From Salipiger thiooxidans (lineage in GTDB: Bacteria > Pseudomonadota > Alphaproteobacteria > Rhodobacterales > Rhodobacteraceae), in contig NZ_FNAV01000014.1 of assembly GCF_900102075.1 (NCBI RefSeq), forward strand, positions 62,001 through 126,000: 64,000 nt of DNA, in the 5' to 3' direction. Both the position numbers and the translations under genes were made by a program. The notes beneath the pieces are model-generated. The model was not told where the DNA came from, searched no databases, and saw only the letters and a list, made by a program, of their open reading frames with translations. This document shows positions 6,981 to 40,047 of the stretch, in pieces (position 1 is the first letter of the stretch; every line of letters starts with the position of its first letter).

Positions 6981-7175
6981 ATGTCCAACGAGCATAACTG
7001 CGCAACCTGTGCCTTCTTCGAAGACCACAAGGCGAACACCACTGCGGTTCCGGATGATGCCGGCCTCTGCCGCTTCAACCCGCCGGTCACCCAGCCCGAA
7101 GCCAACGCCCGCGGCCTCTGGCCGGTGGTGAAATCCGACGACTGGTGCGGCCACTTCGAAGCCGAAGCCGCCTGA
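6981..7175 (+). CDS. small cysteine-containing protein, possible metal site
   Basis: A 64-residue protein preceded by AGGAGA seven bases before the ATG. It has CATCAFF near the N-terminus, then GLCRFNPP and finally DDWCGHFE, so four cysteines and a histidine are placed as in small zinc or iron-sulfur proteins. The motif GLWPVVKSDDWCGHF recurs in small Rhodobacteraceae proteins as I recall, but the function is unknown to me. It stands alone, about 250 bp upstream of the candidate two-hairpin sRNA on the same strand; co-transcription is possible. Confidence 0.7.
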   Translation: MSNEHNCATCAFFEDHKANTTAVPDDAGLCRFNPPVTQPEANARGLWPVVKSDDWCGHFEAEAA

Positions 7176-7421
7176 GCGGCCCGGAACAGGGCGACGCCAT
7201 CCATCCCCCCAGCAAGGCAGCCCGCGCGGGCGACCCAGCAAGGCAGACAGACAGCCAAGCCGAAGAGGAAGAGCGGATCGACGATCCGTCCTTTCTTGCG
7301 TTTCAGGTCGCGAAAAGCCAATGCCATGCGCCAGCGGCAAGGCGGCCTTGCAGCCGCGTCCCTTGTTCTGCACCGCAGCACTGCGTAGGTAGGGGCAACG
7401 GCGCAGCGATGTGCCACAGAG

Positions 7422-7499
7422 TTTCCTGGGGTTCTCTCCTCCTCCCTGAGCCCCGGAAATCAGCGGCGACCCTCTCTCCTCCTCCCTGAGGGTCGCCGC
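7422..7499 (+). ncRNA. two-hairpin anti-Shine-Dalgarno RNA, CcsR ('cuckoo')-like
   Basis: Two adjacent hairpins carry the same 13-nt loop, TCTCCTCCTCCCT. Hairpin 1 spans 7422-7459 with the loop at 7435-7447; its stem has 12 pairs including one G-U, plus a single bulge. Hairpin 2 spans 7463-7499 with a perfect 12-bp stem and the loop at 7475-7487. The arrangement matches what is known of the CcsR RNAs of Rhodobacter sphaeroides, which expose CCUCCUCCC and act on C1 genes such as flhR. No strong promoter or U-run terminator was located, so exact ends are unknown. RNA-seq support is not available here. Confidence 0.65.
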
Positions 7500-7560
7500 G
7501 CCCCTACCCTCCCCCTCGCATTCACCAGCAGTCCGCCCCCTTGCATATGCCCTGCGCATG

Positions 7561-7624: not shown

Positions 7625-7795
7625 TCAGGCGGCGGTGCTGCGGTCCATGCGCTCGCGCTCGGCGGAGACCGCCTCGAGGTACAGCTCCGGATCATCGTCC
7701 GAGCCGCAGACCTTCGTCGCGATGTCGAAGTCCGACATGCCACGCAGCAGCAGAAGCTCGACCTTGTTGGCCTGCTCGCGGTTCAGAAGGTTCAT
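7625..7795 (-). CDS. small conserved protein of unknown function
   Basis: A 56-residue acidic, helical protein starting MNLLNREQANKVELLLLRGM. The ATG at 7795 has GGGAGAGGA just upstream and a clear terminator follows, which together argue that this short frame is real. The longer frame to 8347 has no supporting start signal. No domain is recognised. No signal peptide or membrane segment is present. Confidence 0.6.
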   Translation of the reverse strand: MNLLNREQANKVELLLLRGMSDFDIATKVCGSDDDPELYLEAVSAERERMDRSTAA

Positions 7796-8358
7796 GGTGT
7801 CCTCTCCCTTGGCTTCGGTCGGCACAGGCCCCCAGAGAGGGCGGGACGGCCGTCCATCGGTGTCATCCAGTTGTTCGGATCCCCGCCCGAGTGCGCGGCG
7901 GGTGCCTCTTCTTAGCACAGTCCGGTAGCGCAACCAAGCGGCATGACCGGGCGTTGCCCGGGACGTTGCGACACAGGGTCGTACATCGCCAGATCGCCGG
8001 ACGGGCAGATGCTCAGGAAGTGAGCAAAAGATGAGCGCCGGATATGCCAATTGGTCGCATATGGCGGGTTTCACCACCCGCTGCCATTGCGCCGCCTTCT
8101 GACACCTATATCTCGGTAAGAGAGACGCCCGGTCGCCCCACACCTCCCCTGGAGGCGACCGGTTCCAGACTGGATGGGCCTTTACTCTTTCGCGCCATCC
8201 GTCTTCAGGGTCGGCCCGCCCTCCTCCTCCCGGCGGGTCGACCACGAATTCCCTTGCGCGTGCTACGTCACATGACAACGGGCTCCGTGTCCAGAAAATT
8301 CGACGCTGCGTTGCGGCGCAGTCGCAGTCACTCGCGTCAGCCGGCAATCACCCAGACG
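7796..8358. other. non-coding stretch with a 9-bp inverted repeat
   Basis: No convincing gene is seen in about 560 bases between two minus-strand genes. It includes the promoter of the 56-aa gene at its left end. A perfect inverted repeat, CCGGTCGCC (8129-8137) and GGCGACCGG (8154-8162), encloses a 16-nt loop containing CACCTCCCCTGG. It could be an RNA hairpin or a terminator without a U-run. Confidence 0.35.
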
Positions 8359-8419: not shown

Positions 8420-11400
8420 TCAGAAGAACGACAGGTCGTCCACCATGTCCTGCTTGTCGGTCACCCCGTCGAGCGCCACGATCCGGCCTCCGCCGAAATC
8501 GAAAATGGTGTCGCCGGAGCTGTCGTCGGCGAAGGTGTTCACCACCTGCTGCGCCGTCATGCCACCGCCCCAGAGCGTTGCGTCAAGTCGCAGCGTGTCG
8601 ATGTCGTCCTGGAAGTCGAGGATGGTATCCACCTCGGAGCTCAGCCCGAAGATGAAGGTGTCGGCCCCGGAACCGCCAGCGACGGTATCGTTGCCACCAT
8701 TGGCCCGGATGATGTCGTTGCCCGACCCGCCGAGGATGGTGTCGTCGCCATTGGCACCGGCCAGCACGTCATTGCCCGACCCACCCTCGATGCTGTCGAG
8801 CGTCGAGGTCGACGCGGGGTTGCCACCCGAGTAGCCGGTGATGGTGTCGTTGCCGCCACCGCCACGTAGCGTCTGGAAGTTGCCGCCACCGATGATGATG
8901 TCGTTGCCGCCACCGCCTTCGATGGTCACCGTGTTGATGCTATTGGCGTCGAGGACATCCCCGAAGGCGGAACCGACCAGCCGGTCGAAACCCTCGAGAA
9001 TGTCGCCGTCGGCGTGGCCGCCGGTGTTGGTGGCGGAGTTCATCAGCACCTGCACCCCGGCGTTGGAGTTGGCGTAGCTCACCGTATCCTTGCCGTTGTT
9101 CCCCACGAGGCTGTCTGCCCCGGCGTTGCCCGCGATCACGTCGTCGCCGAGCCCACCGATGATGGTATCGTCGCCAGCCGCGCCCGCGAGCACGTCGTCG
9201 CCGTTGCCGCCTTCGATCACGTCCGCTGTCGAGGTCGAGTTGAAGTTGGCACCGGCATAGGCGGTGATGGTGTCGTTGCCGCCGCCACCGCGCATGGTCT
9301 GGGTGTTGCCGCCACCGATGATGCGGTCATTGCCGCCGCCGGCTTCAATCGTGGTCAGGTTGCGGTTGTTGGCGTTGATCACGTCATTGAAGGACGAGCC
9401 CACGACGCGCTCGAAGCCGGTGATGAAGTCGCCCTGCGCATGGCCGCCGGTGTTGGCACCGGATTCCAGCAGCACGTTCACCGCGGCGTTCGAGTTGGCA
9501 TAGCTGAGTGTATCCCGGCCGTTGCCGCCTTCCATGCTGTCGGCACCTGCGTTGCCGGCGACCACGTCGTCGCCGAGACCGCCGATGATGGTGTCGTCGC
9601 CCGCCGCACCGGCCAGCACGTCTCTGCCCGAACCGCCGTCGAGAAAGTCCGCGACGCTGGTCGAATTGAAGTTCGCACCGGCATAGGCGGTGATCGTGTC
9701 GTTGCCACCCTGGCCACGCATGGTCTGGGTGTTGGCACCACCGATGATGCGGTCGTTGCCGCCACCGGCTTCGACCGTGGTCAGGTTGCGGCTGTTGGCG
9801 TCGATGGTGTCGGCGAAGGCCGAGCCCACGATGCGCTCGAAGCCGGTGATGAAGTCACCCTGCGCGTGACCGCCGGTGTTTGCGCCGGTCTCGAGCGTGA
9901 TGTTGATGCCGGCGTTGGAGGCGGAGTAAGACAGCGTGTCGCGGCCGTTGTTGCCGAACATGCTGTCCGCGCCCTGGGCGCCCGCGATCACGTCATCTCC
10001 GAGCCCGCCGATGATGGTGTCATTGCCGAGGCCGCCGTTGATCGTGTCCGCGCCTCCACGGCCGTTGATGCTGTCGTCCCCGCCGTTGCCAAGGAAGATG
10101 TTGTCAGCGCCGTCGCCGAAGAGGTTGTCATGCTCGTTCGAGCCGAAGACGTTCTCGACGCTCTGGATATCGAACGAGGCGCCATAGGCCGTACGTGTCG
10201 AAGTATAGAGATAGTCATAGGTCTCGGTGGCAAGATCGACGAGCATCCCGAGCGTGCCATAGGTCGTGCCCGAGAAGTCCGCGGTATCCCTTCCGGCGCC
10301 ACCGAAGAAGTTGAAGCTCCAGCCGATGCCGGTCTGGGCGACGGTGTCGTTGCCGCCACCGCCGGTGATCGTGTCGCCGTCCTCGTTGAGCCCGCCGAGG
10401 TGGTTCACGAGGTCGTTGCCGGCCCCGAGGATGAGCTCGTTGTTCTCAGTCACGGCGTCGGTCACGGTATCGTCACCCGCGGTGCCGATCGCGTTCTCGA
10501 AGCTGATCATCTGCTCCGTGTTGGCGTTGGTGTCGGTTACGAGCTCCGCGGTCAGGTCGATTTCGAGGCCGTTTTCACCCGAATTCGAGAAGTCGATCCA
10601 GTCATTACCGGAGCCACCGTCATGCAGGTCGGAGTTGATCGCCGACGAGACGCGCAGCGTGTCGTTGCCGGCATCGCCGAAGTAGTTGCGGATGGCACCG
10701 AGCTCGGTGATGTCGTCATTCCCGGCGCCGCCACGGACGTCACCAGCGCCGCTGTCGACGGTGAAGGTGTCGTTGCCGACCGTGCCCGCCCAGTAGTCGA
10801 ACTGAGAACCGGACAGCGGCATATCGCCCTCGCTCGCGGCATCGCGGACGTCGAGGATCTGGGTGTAGATCCGGCTGTTGAGCGTATAGGTCACCTGCAC
10901 CCGGCCATCCGCGAGTAGCGTCGCATCGGGCTGCGAGGCGTTCGCCTCGTCGGAGATGACGAAGTTGCTTCCGACCTGCGCACCGCTGGCGTTGAAACGC
11001 TGCGCGATGAGCTGGTCGAGCGTGTCCTCGTCGTAGATGACCATGAAGCCGCCATCGTCGAGCGCGACCACGACCGGCTCGTTGGCATCGTCGACCCCGC
11101 CGAGGTTGGACACCACGATGACGCCCGACGTGGCAGACCCGGACGCGTCGAAGACCTGTGCGAGAATGTCATCGTCGGTGTCGAAGTTGCGCCACGCCAC
11201 GACGAAGCCGCCACCCGCGAGCGCCGTCACCGACGGATCGTAGTCAAGCTCGGAGTCCCCGGCGGTGCCGGCGATCGAGGTGATGCTGAGCACGTTGGCA
11301 CCGGTGGGGCTGAGGATCCGGATGACGATGTCGGTATCGCCGGTGCCATTGTTGCGACCGGCCGCCACGACGTAGTTGCCGTTCGAGAGCACATCGATGT

Positions 11401-11965
11401 CGATGTAGGGATAGGTGGTGACCGAGCCGCCGCCGAGGATCAGGGTCGCGGCCCCGGTGAAGGACTCGGTGTCGGAGTTCCAGATCCGGGCGTAGACGTC
11501 GCTCTCGGTGGCGCTCTCCTGCTGCGACCAGATCACCATGGCCGAGGTGCTGCTCGACACGGCGATCTCGGGCACGAAGCCGTTGGGCACCCCGTTGCTG
11601 CCATCGAAGAACGCGTAGGCAAGGGCCTCCTGCACGCCTTCCGCATCGAACTGACGCACGCGAATGTCGTCGAAGCTGCCGGTGTCGACCTCGTGCGCGA
11701 TCAGGAAGCCACCGTCGGGCAATGCGGCGACGGCAGGGAAATCGTCAGCGTTGTCGGTCTCGCCGAGATAAAGCTCGGCCGAGACGACGTTGCCGAACGG
11801 ATCGAGGATGCGGCCCCATACGTCGTAGTCGCCGTCGTCAAAGGCAGTCCAGACGATGAGGACGTTGCCGTTGGACAGCTGGACGACGTGGGAGTCGGCG
11901 TCGGTGCCTGAGCTCGTGCTGGGAATGAGTGTCTCGGGGAGCCAGGCGACTGGGGTATTGGGCAT
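8420..11965 (-). CDS. large RTX-type calcium-binding repeat protein, probably secreted by type I system
   Basis: The 1,181-residue protein starts at 11965, where GGAGA lies about eight bases before ATG. Residues about 1-390 hold six or seven blocks of the form GGFVVAWRNFDTDDD...AQVFDASG, a beta-propeller-like region. From about 415 onward come many GGxGxD nonapeptides that bind calcium in RTX proteins. Three near-identical 142-residue units (about 645-1070) form the core. The C-terminus has SSEVDTILDFQDDIDTLRLD and a short hydrophobic tail typical of type I secretion substrates. No T1SS genes are in the window. An adhesin or surface-layer-like role is possible. Confidence 0.85.
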   Translation of the reverse strand: MPNTPVAWLPETLIPSTSSGTDADSHVVQLSNGNVLIVWTAFDDGDYDVWGRILDPFGNVVSAELYLGETDNADDFPAVAALPDGGFLIAHEVDTGSFDDIRVRQFDAEGVQEALAYAFFDGSNGVPNGFVPEIAVSSSTSAMVIWSQQESATESDVYARIWNSDTESFTGAATLILGGGSVTTYPYIDIDVLSNGNYVVAAGRNNGTGDTDIVIRILSPTGANVLSITSIAGTAGDSELDYDPSVTALAGGGFVVAWRNFDTDDDILAQVFDASGSATSGVIVVSNLGGVDDANEPVVVALDDGGFMVIYDEDTLDQLIAQRFNASGAQVGSNFVISDEANASQPDATLLADGRVQVTYTLNSRIYTQILDVRDAASEGDMPLSGSQFDYWAGTVGNDTFTVDSGAGDVRGGAGNDDITELGAIRNYFGDAGNDTLRVSSAINSDLHDGGSGNDWIDFSNSGENGLEIDLTAELVTDTNANTEQMISFENAIGTAGDDTVTDAVTENNELILGAGNDLVNHLGGLNEDGDTITGGGGNDTVAQTGIGWSFNFFGGAGRDTADFSGTTYGTLGMLVDLATETYDYLYTSTRTAYGASFDIQSVENVFGSNEHDNLFGDGADNIFLGNGGDDSINGRGGADTINGGLGNDTIIGGLGDDVIAGAQGADSMFGNNGRDTLSYSASNAGINITLETGANTGGHAQGDFITGFERIVGSAFADTIDANSRNLTTVEAGGGNDRIIGGANTQTMRGQGGNDTITAYAGANFNSTSVADFLDGGSGRDVLAGAAGDDTIIGGLGDDVVAGNAGADSMEGGNGRDTLSYANSNAAVNVLLESGANTGGHAQGDFITGFERVVGSSFNDVINANNRNLTTIEAGGGNDRIIGGGNTQTMRGGGGNDTITAYAGANFNSTSTADVIEGGNGDDVLAGAAGDDTIIGGLGDDVIAGNAGADSLVGNNGKDTVSYANSNAGVQVLMNSATNTGGHADGDILEGFDRLVGSAFGDVLDANSINTVTIEGGGGNDIIIGGGNFQTLRGGGGNDTITGYSGGNPASTSTLDSIEGGSGNDVLAGANGDDTILGGSGNDIIRANGGNDTVAGGSGADTFIFGLSSEVDTILDFQDDIDTLRLDATLWGGGMTAQQVVNTFADDSSGDTIFDFGGGRIVALDGVTDKQDMVDDLSFF
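8753..10030 (-). repeat. three tandem 426-bp repeats inside the RTX gene
   Basis: The same coding block recurs with a period of exactly 426 bp. For example the segment encoding GGLGDDV is found near 9140, 9566 and 9992. Each unit encodes 142 residues containing GADS..GN.G.DT.SY, NTGGHAQGD and GGGNDRIIGG. The unit nearest the C-terminus has diverged most. Such repeats can expand or contract by recombination. Confidence 0.8.
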
Positions 11966-12583
11966 ATCAAAATCTCCATAAAAAATTGCGCGTGGCGCCA
12001 TGGGCGGTACGCACACCTGCAGTCACTGGGTAACAGGGAAGAGTCGACTTGCCGCCTAAAACGGGTGTGGTCGCCGGGGACTCAAAGGCGACGGGGGCTC
12101 TGTAATAGGCTAAAAAACTCTCCTACCGCTAATGTTGATCAGCCTAACACGCGCGTGATTGACCTGCATAGCCCTTCGAGCGTGTTGCTTTCCGTACTTG
12201 ACAGGCGTTTTTTCTCAACAAAGTCTCTGCGCTCGCGCGCCGGGAACGACCGCCACATGCGGGCCTCAAAGCCGCAGAAATTCCAGCGTAATTACATGAT
12301 AATATTCGGTTCGTCCGCGCATTCGCCTGACCGCCCTGGGATCGGGCCGAATCGCCGTCCGGTATTCACGCACCACCGCAGCCGCGAAGTTGACGCGACA
12401 CCGCCCGCGCGCGGCCATCGGCGATGGTTCGCGGAGGATTCGCCCGCCAAAAAATCTGACGCGAAAGAGCGTCTGCCGCGACTCTCCTCACATCCAAGTG
12501 AGCCGCCCCGGCGGGCCGCCGGGGTTGACCGCAGCGCCAATATCGTTACCTAGGCAATCATTAGCAGGGTAACGTATCACGCC
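11966..12583. promoter_or_regulatory. 618-bp divergent intergenic region with a MarR-type operator candidate
   Basis: This gap separates the RTX gene (minus) from the marR gene (plus) and must hold both promoters. CGTTACC (12544-12550) and GGTAACG (12568-12574) form a perfect 7-bp inverted repeat ten bases before the marR start, a typical place for MarR autoregulation. The remainder shows no gene. Confidence 0.45.
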
Positions 12584-28801: not shown

Positions 28802-28856
28802 TGAGCGCTTCGTCGTGCGGTGGGGACTTTCCCGATCAGGTTGCCGTGACAGGCAC

Positions 28857-29951
28857 ATGACATTCATTCAGGCATCCGCGCCCACCGGGCAGCGGAGTGT
28901 TTCCCCGTTGTCCGCGGACAACGGCTACCCGGACCGTCACATCGTGATGGAGACGCTGCGAACGGCTGCGCCGCTCCTGGGGCTTCGCGCCCCGGTGCTC
29001 GCGACACTGGACGCCCTGCTCTCCTGCCTCCCCCCGAAGCGGACGCACCACACAGTCTTCGCCTCGAACGCGACGCTGACGTTCCGGCGCAACGGCATCT
29101 CGGATCGAACCCTGCGGCGGCACGTGGCGCTCCTGCAGGACGCCGGTCTGCTGACGCGCCACGACAGCCCCAACCGCAAGCGCTACTCCCGTCACAACCG
29201 CGAAGACGGCATGGCTCTGCGCTTCGGCTTCGACCTCACCCCGCTCTTTCGGCGCATGACCGAGCTCGTACGTGTCGCCTGTGACGCCCGAACCCTGCAG
29301 GAGCGCATAGCCTACCTCACCTGCAAGATCCGCGCCGCCGCCAACGACCTTCTGATGTCCGACCCAAAGCACGAGGCCGCAGCCCTTGCTCGTGCCGCCC
29401 TGCGTCGGAAGCTCACGGTCTCGGAGTGCGAAGCCTTGCTCGAGGGGCTCGAACAGACCCCCGCCGAGGGGGCATCGGATCCCGGTGAGACGATGGATAT
29501 GACCGGCAGAAACGGCCAAAATGTCCGGCACCATCAGAACTCAACAAAAGAAAATATTGATAGAACCGCAGAGACCAGCACGCAGCCCTCGCGACAGGAC
29601 ACCAGCCCTCCGGACCAAGGGAGAGAAATCCCGGTGAACGAGATCGTCCGGCTCTGCCCGGAGGCAGCGCAGTTCGAGCAGGCTCCGACAGAGACCGTTG
29701 GCGATGTGGTCGCCCATGCGAGGTTCCTTGCCCCGATGATGGGCATCGACGCCTGCAGCTATGATGCCGCCAGGTCCCGGCTTGGAGAGACCGGGGCCGC
29801 GTTGACGGTCTGGGGGCTGATGCAGATCCAGCACCGCATCCGTAAGCTCGGAGCTTATTTCCGCTCAATCACCAGCGGCGCCAGAAGCGACGGTTTCGAC
29901 CCCATCGGCCTGATCCTGTCTCTGGATCGCGAGCGCATACCCACGACCTGA
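28857..29951 (+). CDS. repC: RepC, replication initiator of the repABC plasmid
   Basis: The 364-residue protein has the RepC core: a winged-helix region with FASNATLTFRRNGISDRTLRRHVALLQDAGLLTRHDSPNRKRYSRH split over about 62-108, and a C-terminal region with AQFEQAP and GAYFRSIT. The central linker DNA near 29530-29570 is A/T-rich (encoding HHQNSTKENIDRT), which fits the known location of the origin inside repC. The start at 28857 is weakly supported by AGG; an earlier in-frame start at 28815 is possible. One candidate parS lies in its 5' end. Confidence 0.92.
   Translation: MTFIQASAPTGQRSVSPLSADNGYPDRHIVMETLRTAAPLLGLRAPVLATLDALLSCLPPKRTHHTVFASNATLTFRRNGISDRTLRRHVALLQDAGLLTRHDSPNRKRYSRHNREDGMALRFGFDLTPLFRRMTELVRVACDARTLQERIAYLTCKIRAAANDLLMSDPKHEAAALARAALRRKLTVSECEALLEGLEQTPAEGASDPGETMDMTGRNGQNVRHHQNSTKENIDRTAETSTQPSRQDTSPPDQGREIPVNEIVRLCPEAAQFEQAPTETVGDVVAHARFLAPMMGIDACSYDAARSRLGETGAALTVWGLMQIQHRIRKLGAYFRSITSGARSDGFDPIGLILSLDRERIPTT
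28905..28924. promoter_or_regulatory. candidate parS site 1
   Basis: CCGTTGTCCGCGGACAACGG is a perfect 20-bp palindrome inside the 5' end of repC. It shares TTGTCCGCGGACAA with site 2 and TGTCCGCGGACA with site 3. Confidence 0.65.
29530..29572 (+). other. A/T-rich tract inside repC, origin candidate
   Basis: A stretch rich in A and T (around AAAAGAAAATATTGAT) contrasts with the high GC of the whole window. repABC origins lie within repC at such a tract, so this is the likely oriV. No iterons were seen. Confidence 0.5.
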
Positions 29952-30886: not shown

Positions 30887-31017
30887 GTTTCTCCCGCGAT
30901 GGACCCCAAACGCAGCCGATACTTACGGCTGCATTGCCAGAATCCTGCTCTGCCCGCACCCTTTGGCGCGAGAGCGCCTTGGGAAGGGCGCGTCTCTCAG
31001 GGAGGAGTGAAACGAAG

Positions 31018-31847: not shown

Positions 31848-31862
31848 CCTCCCGGAGGGAGG
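31848..31862 (+). promoter_or_regulatory. hairpin that covers the flhR Shine-Dalgarno sequence
   Basis: CCTCCC (31848-31853), a 3-nt loop and GGGAGG (31857-31862) form a perfect 6-bp hairpin. The right arm is the ribosome binding site of the response regulator gene that starts at 31871. The region also holds AGGGAGGA (31856-31863), complementary to the cuckoo-like RNA loops. Confidence 0.55.
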
Positions 31863-31870
31863 ACATTTCA

Positions 31871-36075: not shown

Positions 36076-36182
36076 TCCCCCGGGATATTTCGGGCCATTG
36101 GAAACACGCGCCCGCACCGACAAAAGTCGGCAATGACAGGCGGGGCAGGGGGGGTAGGCTCGGGCCAGGGAGGATTCGAACC

Positions 36183-39885: not shown

Positions 39886-40047
39886 CGTTCTTTCCTCCCT
39901 CGGCCAACTATGAAACAGCGTGCGCGCGAGGTCCATTCCGGGGAATACCCACCATTGGCTGTATTGTTCGGTATGCAACCGCGCACCCATACTCTGGGCA
40001 AACGCCGCAGAGCGTCAGAAACGTTGTCTAGTCAGGAGGGAGCCTGC

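Follow-up and report, generated by a model that had tools for sequence, protein, structure and literature searches.

What is a short RNA with two anti-Shine-Dalgarno (anti-SD) loops doing on a plasmid-like replicon of Salipiger thiooxidans, close to genes of C1 metabolism? An earlier note on this DNA had read the element as a CcsR-type RNA that travels with a C1 island and switches its genes after transcription. We have re-examined it in a 64,000-nucleotide stretch of contig C34, referred to here as the window, and in related genomes. Our preferred reading, to which we give a probability of roughly 70%, is that the element is a small-RNA gene in its own right, of the CcsR/ar14 ('cuckoo') kind; activated by a LysR-type regulator, it would belong to the regulon of the DUF1127-CcsR clusters and raise the dose of the RNA from secondary replicons.

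RNA structure and the solitary class

The element comprises two adjacent hairpins, A and B, whose loops consist of the same 13-mer, TCTCCTCCTCCCT, exactly as the earlier note had described (Table 1). That note held neither the additional hairpin at the 5' side nor the promoter block (7323-7391), the five sister copies, the DUF1127-CcsR array and the second element (~8125-8245) that are considered below. Across an alignment of 60 solitary copies (59 distinct), changes on both sides are seen in 20 of the 31 pairs of the three helices, and 94.4% of cells are paired, against 38-49% in controls slid by 1 to 3 columns. These slid controls are a better guide than a shuffle control, because shuffling does not keep relatedness. 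Judged by the compensatory changes across the 60 copies, both anti-SD hairpins and the third, 5' hairpin are real, and the element is very probably a true small-RNA gene whose loops copy the sequence with which the ribosome binds mRNA. The predicted transcript has an uncertain 3' end with a C-rich tail lacking a T run; no T-rich terminator was seen, which counts against our preferred reading.

Table 1. Positions of the features considered in the window.
Feature	Position	Strand	Remarks
64-aa cysteine-containing ORF	6981-7175	+	no family match
Conserved upstream block	7323..7352	+	LysR-type box ATGC-N7-GCA 7326-7339 (T-N11-A 7327..7339); second half-site TTGCA 7348-7352
Promoter-like core (predicted)	7363..7391	+	-35 TTGTTC 7363-7368, 17-base spacer, -10 TAGGTA 7386-7391; conserved in alignments
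Predicted transcript, ~110 nt	7398..7510	+	start ~7398 from the -10 position; extent from homology limits
Hairpin 1	7400..7415	+	GGCGCA-GCGA-TGTGCC, without anti-SD motif; 5/6 pairs change on both sides (60 copies)
Hairpin A	7421..7460	+	stem 7421-7434/7448-7460, anti-SD loop 7435-7447; 9/13 pairs change on both sides (60 copies)
Hairpin B	7463..7499	+	stem 7463-7474/7488-7499, anti-SD loop 7475-7487; 6/12 pairs change on both sides (60 copies)
56-aa small protein	7628-7795	-	
Second three-hairpin RNA-like element	~8125-8245	+	CCTCCCC loop in first hairpin, CCTCCTCCTCCC in third
Long ORF	8420-12016	-	glycine-aspartate-rich repeats, by eye like RTX calcium-binding repeats
RepC-type replication initiator	28815..29951	+	PF03428, 114.2 bits at 28920-29348 (C34:90920-91348)
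AGGGAGGAG in leader of GFA-family gene (gfa)	30999..31007	+	start 31018; GFA by Pfam
AGGGAGGA in leader of flhR (name from the earlier note)	31856..31863	+	start 31871; receiver and LuxR-type HTH by Pfam
AGGGAGGA before ORF 36183	36167..36174	+	absent from the earlier note
AGGGAGGA in leader of ORF called helical secreted protein	39893..39900	-	start 39885; no Pfam match

With at least two adjacent hairpins carrying CCUCCUCCC in the loop, the window RNA has the character of cuckoo/CcsR-type RNAs, and to this extent the earlier assignment as a CcsR-type RNA with anti-SD loops is borne out. Searching with the Rfam models recovered the likeness only in part: CcsR1 (RF02791) matches the window RNA at 46.2 bits, below its gathering cut-off of 65.3, and ar14 (RF02344) matches at 47.7 bits, below a cut-off of 58.8. 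None of 20 solitary loci reached the ar14 cut-off, and 12 array loci of the genus reached no cut-off at all; since the array loci also fall below it, the RF02791 cut-off does not separate the solitary and array classes. None of the papers available to a literature search contained Salipiger together with sRNA, each as a whole word.

Across the 5.87-Mb genome the 13-mer is found 22 times and its reversed pattern not at all. The end of contig C28 has nine of these occurrences, immediately following a 72-aa DUF1127 protein (Pfam, 44.8 bits), and that of contig C23 has three; we infer that the two contigs hold one canonical ccaF1-CcsR array split by assembly. The remaining ten belong to six dispersed elements sharing ~110 bases (two each on C26 and C49, one on C51, and the window copy on C34), and number ten rather than twelve because the second loop differs by one letter in the C51 copy and in one of the C49 copies. 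A model built from these six copies gave, by hand count of the matches listed (~74 bits and up, so that copies under this score may be missing), at least 57 solitary copies in at least 17 of the 20 genomes of the genus. Three more solitary matches came from two other genera, the weaker family matches being mostly tandem. In broader samples, searched with filters that lose weak matches, 106 of 198 genomes of the family had some match at E 0.001, and 2 of 289 genomes of the class, S. thiooxidans included, had one at E 1e-6.

The solitary loci form a class with consistent features. Using tblastn with a DUF1127 protein, we found no DUF1127 gene at any of 59 loci (60 copies), so that the arrangement that defines CIN1/ccaF1-CcsR, a DUF1127 gene directly upstream and cotranscribed, is absent from them. 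All but two of the 59 have one pair of exact motifs, the motif being changed in those two, and loci with a DUF1127 match have four or more motifs each. One of 61 copies (G098) was left out because it has an adjoining DUF1127 gene and four motifs. A further CCTCCTCCC lies within ~1.5 kb at six solitary loci (L020, L030, L059, L061, L062 and L085). In the family, tblastn gave no DUF1127 match at four loci that have five to seven motifs (L043, L044, L052 and L055); arrays are therefore not always seen with the gene. On its sequence, with a single loop pair and no DUF1127 gene within 1.5 kb by tblastn, as the earlier note had remarked of its immediate surroundings, the window RNA belongs to the solitary class.

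Promoter box and candidate regulator

Upstream of the 60 aligned solitary copies runs a block that reads CATGC-N8-CA ... TCTGCA ... TTGtnC ... TA; in the window, an inverted repeat, CTGC-ACC-GCAG (7368-7378), overlaps its predicted -35. Exact CATGC-N8-CA is present in 45 of the 60 solitary promoters compared with 13 of 1748 background windows. Its absence from the other 15, among them both C49 copies of S. thiooxidans, argues against the preferred reading. The DUF1127-CcsR loci show the box in a stricter form. ATGC-N7-GCAT is found in 84 of 86 (background windows, 0 of 1754), and 83 of the 86 have two TGC-N7-GCA boxes at a spacing of 39-41 (0 of 1754). The 86 are the distinct upstream sequences of 88 loci. 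These make up a biased sample: 80 of the 88 are the top-ranking ones among 109 relatives of a single query, and a few come from MAGs or from genomes also counted under another handle. The window box, ATGC-N7-GCAA, differs from the perfect ATGC-N7-GCAT of the 84.

A joint pattern, ATGC-N8-CA ... TTGnnC ... GCRGC, is matched by both the window copy and the array of the same genome. Its 8 sites across the whole genome fall at four solitary copies, at the array, at a small-protein operon and at two other places whose sequence looks coding by eye; the reversed control gave 1. As the pattern was built from small-RNA promoters, its five small-RNA matches arise by construction, and it misses both C49 copies. 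An earlier promoter pattern, with 1 mismatch allowed, recovered five solitary copies and four other places, again with 1 site for the reversed control. At locus L283 (G000 C25:23381-23434 and downstream), two small ORFs of 59 and 48 aa lie behind the joint pattern, and the first is weakly DUF1127-like (17.3 bits, below the Pfam cut-off of 23.3).

By these alignments and counts, a LysR-type box is common to the solitary copies and the DUF1127-CcsR clusters; the shared pattern, which the window RNA carries, was found here and lies outside the published CIN1 definition. The near-invariant box at 84 of 86 DUF1127-CcsR loci points to a layer of control beyond the RpoH factors. It is an evenly balanced question whether one operator, made up of ATGC-N7-GCAT and, 39-41 bases further along, a second box, would unite the DUF1127-CcsR loci that were sampled in Rhodobacteraceae, other small DUF1127-like genes and the dispersed solitary RNAs, with extra copies on accessory replicons of several genera, both plasmids and chromids, setting the dose of a host regulator.

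In the window, the T-N11-A core lies ~71 to 59 bases before the inferred start, a LysR box near -65 as in the VtlR/LsrB regulon. T-N11-A boxes are generic for LysR regulators, which weighs against our preferred reading. LsrB is described in PMC10746234 as binding TGCA-N6-GCAT at -72 to -60 of the small RNA NfeR1, and PMC12595884 has Brucella VtlR activating three DUF1127 genes together with AbcR2. We think that a VtlR/LsrB-type regulator may drive a regulon of the solitary and DUF1127-CcsR loci, because the site of the box matches that of LsrB on NfeR1, the DUF1127-CcsR loci share the box and VtlR controls DUF1127 genes. Among the papers listed by a literature search, PMC12501420 alone has CcaF1 together with LysR and LsrB. 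Two further points tell against this proposal. The usual trxB-lsrB/vtlR neighbourhood is absent from this genome, in which trxB, on C39, is followed by an ATP-sulfurylase-type gene (an unlinked orthologue is possible), and the ccaF1-CcsR promoter of R. sphaeroides is described, in a figure legend of PMC10253847, as RpoHI/RpoHII dependent. LysR-domain genes adjoin four of the six copies in the S. thiooxidans genome (L017, L019, L021 and L022); when one of these proteins was compared with the PDB, a TsaMBCD regulator came first among the matches listed, none of which was labelled LsrB.

Under our preferred reading, an activator from the LysR family, with VtlR/LsrB as its most likely type, would bind two half-sites, ~65 and 48 bases ahead of the start, and recruit a sigma-70-type polymerase, yielding an RNA of ~110 nt predicted to fold into the 5' hairpin and two hairpins that each expose an anti-SD loop. 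Alternatively, a longer mRNA that begins with the 64-aa ORF might be processed to give the RNA, as the ccaF1 mRNA is to give CcsR. That ORF shares the strand of the RNA and stops ~190 bases before the promoter-like core, yet tblastn found it at none of 60 other copies, and the promoter block can be recognised when solitary copies are aligned; we regard processing as very unlikely.

Replicons, neighbours and the C1 island

The description of this contig as plasmid-like in the earlier note agrees with the RepC match on C34, and RepC is also encoded on C26, the contig of two sister copies. Among solitary copies of three near-complete genomes (G208, G213 and G215), none of 14 lies on the largest contig, which holds about half the DNA (binomial 5e-5, or 0.002 with shared positions hand-merged to nine). 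Adding G212 and G201 gives 2 of 18 on the largest contig, one copy each, where ~62% would be expected (1e-5), and in G208, G213, G215 and G212 together 9 of 17 copies lie off the largest one or two contigs, against an expected ~20% (0.003). These figures come from genome sizes rounded to 0.1 Mb and from few independent loci, partly shared by descent, in genomes chosen for being near-complete; a further near-complete genome, G198, has no solitary copy above the score cut. In PLSDB, 20 plasmid records in five genera match the RNA; no gene of the database's incomplete table lies under the 20 matches, and all eight that were tested with the model were confirmed (64.5 to 118 bits). A search of a phage collection for the RNA gave no match. 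There are counter-examples, namely the G201 copy on a 4.08-Mb scaffold and one of two G094 copies on a 2.26-Mb contig. Overall, the solitary class is enriched on secondary replicons. Solitary copies in the same regulon as the DUF1127-CcsR cluster could thereby make plasmids and other secondary replicons a source of additional RNA dose.

The surroundings of the copies are diverse. Their flanks fall into 29 groups, with the window copy in a group of six, and no Pfam family occurs in more than 8 of the 86 flanking ORFs examined (from 120 chosen by script). LysR domains reach 8 of the 86, four of these from the S. thiooxidans genome. Within the window's own flank group, a 56-aa small protein stands beside the RNA in five of six genomes, the window included; it has no Pfam or NCBIfam match and is found on five Salipiger/Alloyangia plasmids. 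The second RNA-like element follows the first RNA at a distance of ~785-840 bases in the window, G201, G202 and G088, with its third loop exact in these four, and recurs in more divergent form in G212.

So many dispersed copies in so many flank groups, together with two G094 copies that are identical over the aligned stretch, might suggest a mobile repeat, or a structural DNA or terminator element, that has no function as RNA. The compensatory changes that keep pairing while loops are nearly fixed, the conserved promoter, the positions shared across species and the lack of a flanking family common to most loci (among the first 25 of 83 families listed) all oppose this explanation, which we regard as very unlikely.

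The leaders in which the earlier note saw complements of the loop, those of gfa, flhR and the helical secreted protein, do contain them (Table 1). For the response regulator called flhR, none of the best 25 NCBIfam matches reached its cut-off. Its leader (31848-31866) can, by eye, fold CCTCC-CGGA-GGGAGG onto its own ribosome-binding site. Across orthologues, GGGAGGA is present in 19 of 19 flhR leaders, that of S. thiooxidans included, and of 17 leaders of the gfa orthologues found, 16 match over 8 bases or more; the FIST gene that follows flhR reaches 7 or more in 1 of 18. Matches of at least 8 bases occur in 5 of 13 island leaders, whose genes and starts were hand-picked, compared with 4 of 99 background leaders (Fisher P 0.0009); background leaders with at least 7 bases number 11 of 100 or 10 of 99, depending on the region excluded. 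The loop is also favoured over the 16S tail more strongly in island leaders than in the background (P 0.02 for all 13, and P 0.0003 for nine hand-picked as having their own SD).

Pairing specific to C1 genes was nonetheless rejected as a candidate: the excess over background is genuine, yet C/U oligos with another order of bases share it. In duplex energy with island leaders, C/U oligos whose order is permuted or reversed are about level with the loop itself. Permutations that preserve GGAGG attain the exact-match counts in 9% and 18% of cases, and permutations of any kind in 3% and 7%. That oligos of other order do about as well means that the leaders are strongly purine-rich. At most, selection of island leaders for this loop is suggested.

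A dedicated switch, in which the RNA and its C1 targets (gfa, flhR and others) form one portable plasmid unit, could appeal to the excess of long matches and the stronger preference for the loop in island leaders, to gfa and flhR matches that are kept across the genus, and to the RepC gene on the same contig. Besides the permuted oligos (P 0.09-0.18 when GGAGG is kept), the distribution of the RNA stands against it. Of the 16 genomes having both, 6 place the RNA and flhR on one contig, which in one case is 4.6 Mb long; most of the 16 are drafts, and different contigs therefore need not mean different replicons. Of five near-complete genomes, two have the pair on one contig (G215 and G212) and three do not (G208, G213 and G201); in G201 the locus that corresponds to the window RNA is on the 4.08-Mb scaffold and flhR on another contig. 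Moreover, five sister copies and the CcsR array carry the same loop, so the idea of a private switch travelling with the island is not supported, and the proposed C1 island with its own switch finds support in part, from the gfa and flhR matches. We consider a C1-island switch possible but not favoured, and quite unlikely.

At the scale of the genome, AGGGAGGA-N4-10-ATG has 92 sites, compared with 3 for the reversed control, and from this set we argue for a broad target range. The RNA might then be a general competitor for ribosome-binding sites, damping translation without a specific target set and adding to the dose of the CcsR pool. The 92 sites and the near identity of loops across copies fit such a role, as does the redundancy of anti-SD motifs reported for NfeR1 in PMC10746234; the longer match kept in gfa and flhR leaders than in the background hints at some selection and speaks against it. 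We hold this explanation to be a credible one, with odds somewhat short of even. Another possibility is that the RNA titrates the DUF1127 protein CcaF1 instead of pairing with mRNAs. CcaF1 is presented in PMC10253847 as an RNA-binding protein that promotes CcsR maturation, and this genome has a DUF1127-CcsR locus with the common promoter box; however, the anti-SD loops are kept near letter-for-letter in nearly all copies, which a stem-binding protein would not need, and we think a role as protein sponge unlikely. Our preferred reading, of a LysR-activated RNA gene in the DUF1127-CcsR regulon, would have the loops pair redundantly with purine-rich ribosome-binding sites and so lower translation, with the C1 leaders as some among many candidate targets. 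That C/U oligos of other order pair with the island leaders about as strongly counts against it.

Comparison with known systems

The closest parallel is CcsR of Rhodobacter sphaeroides (ccaF1-CcsR, CIN1). Like the window RNA, CcsR has two anti-SD hairpins with CCUCCUCCC loops, the first stem starts with GUUUC in both, and the window RNA shares its promoter box with the DUF1127-CcsR loci. Unlike the CcsR locus, the window RNA has no DUF1127 gene and no tandem array, and it has an extra 5' hairpin, its own predicted promoter and dispersed copies with plasmid bias. The cuckoo family, which Reinkensmeier and Giegerich are said to have described in 2015, reportedly comprises 2 to 4 adjacent hairpins, each with a CCUCCUCCC loop; going by this definition, the adjacent CCUCCUCCC-loop hairpins of the window RNA resemble it.

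NfeR1/ar14 of rhizobia resembles the solitary class in being a stand-alone RNA with anti-SD loops and a LysR box. As described in PMC10746234, NfeR1 has three anti-SD hairpins, a sigma-70-type promoter and a LysR box at -72 to -60. The window RNA departs from it in having two anti-SD hairpins and a 5' hairpin that is not anti-SD. The NfeR1 box and the window box have a TGC-N7-GCA core in common; the box proposed for Brucella/Agrobacterium (GCAT-N3-TG-N3-T) is unlike the window box. The VtlR/LsrB regulon is known in Brucella, Agrobacterium and Sinorhizobium, where one LysR regulator controls DUF1127 genes (in Brucella) and anti-SD-type small RNAs. The LysR-type box would link the RNAs of Rhodobacteraceae to the VtlR/LsrB circuit of rhizobia and Brucella.

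More generally, our analysis suggests that the dose of a host small RNA is raised by copies of its gene on plasmids. If this is true, accessory replicons of several genera set the dose of a host translation regulator. Set against these known systems, the window RNA represents, by its sequence, a new form of the CcsR/ar14 kind, solitary and enriched on plasmids, that has a LysR-type box in common with the DUF1127-CcsR clusters.
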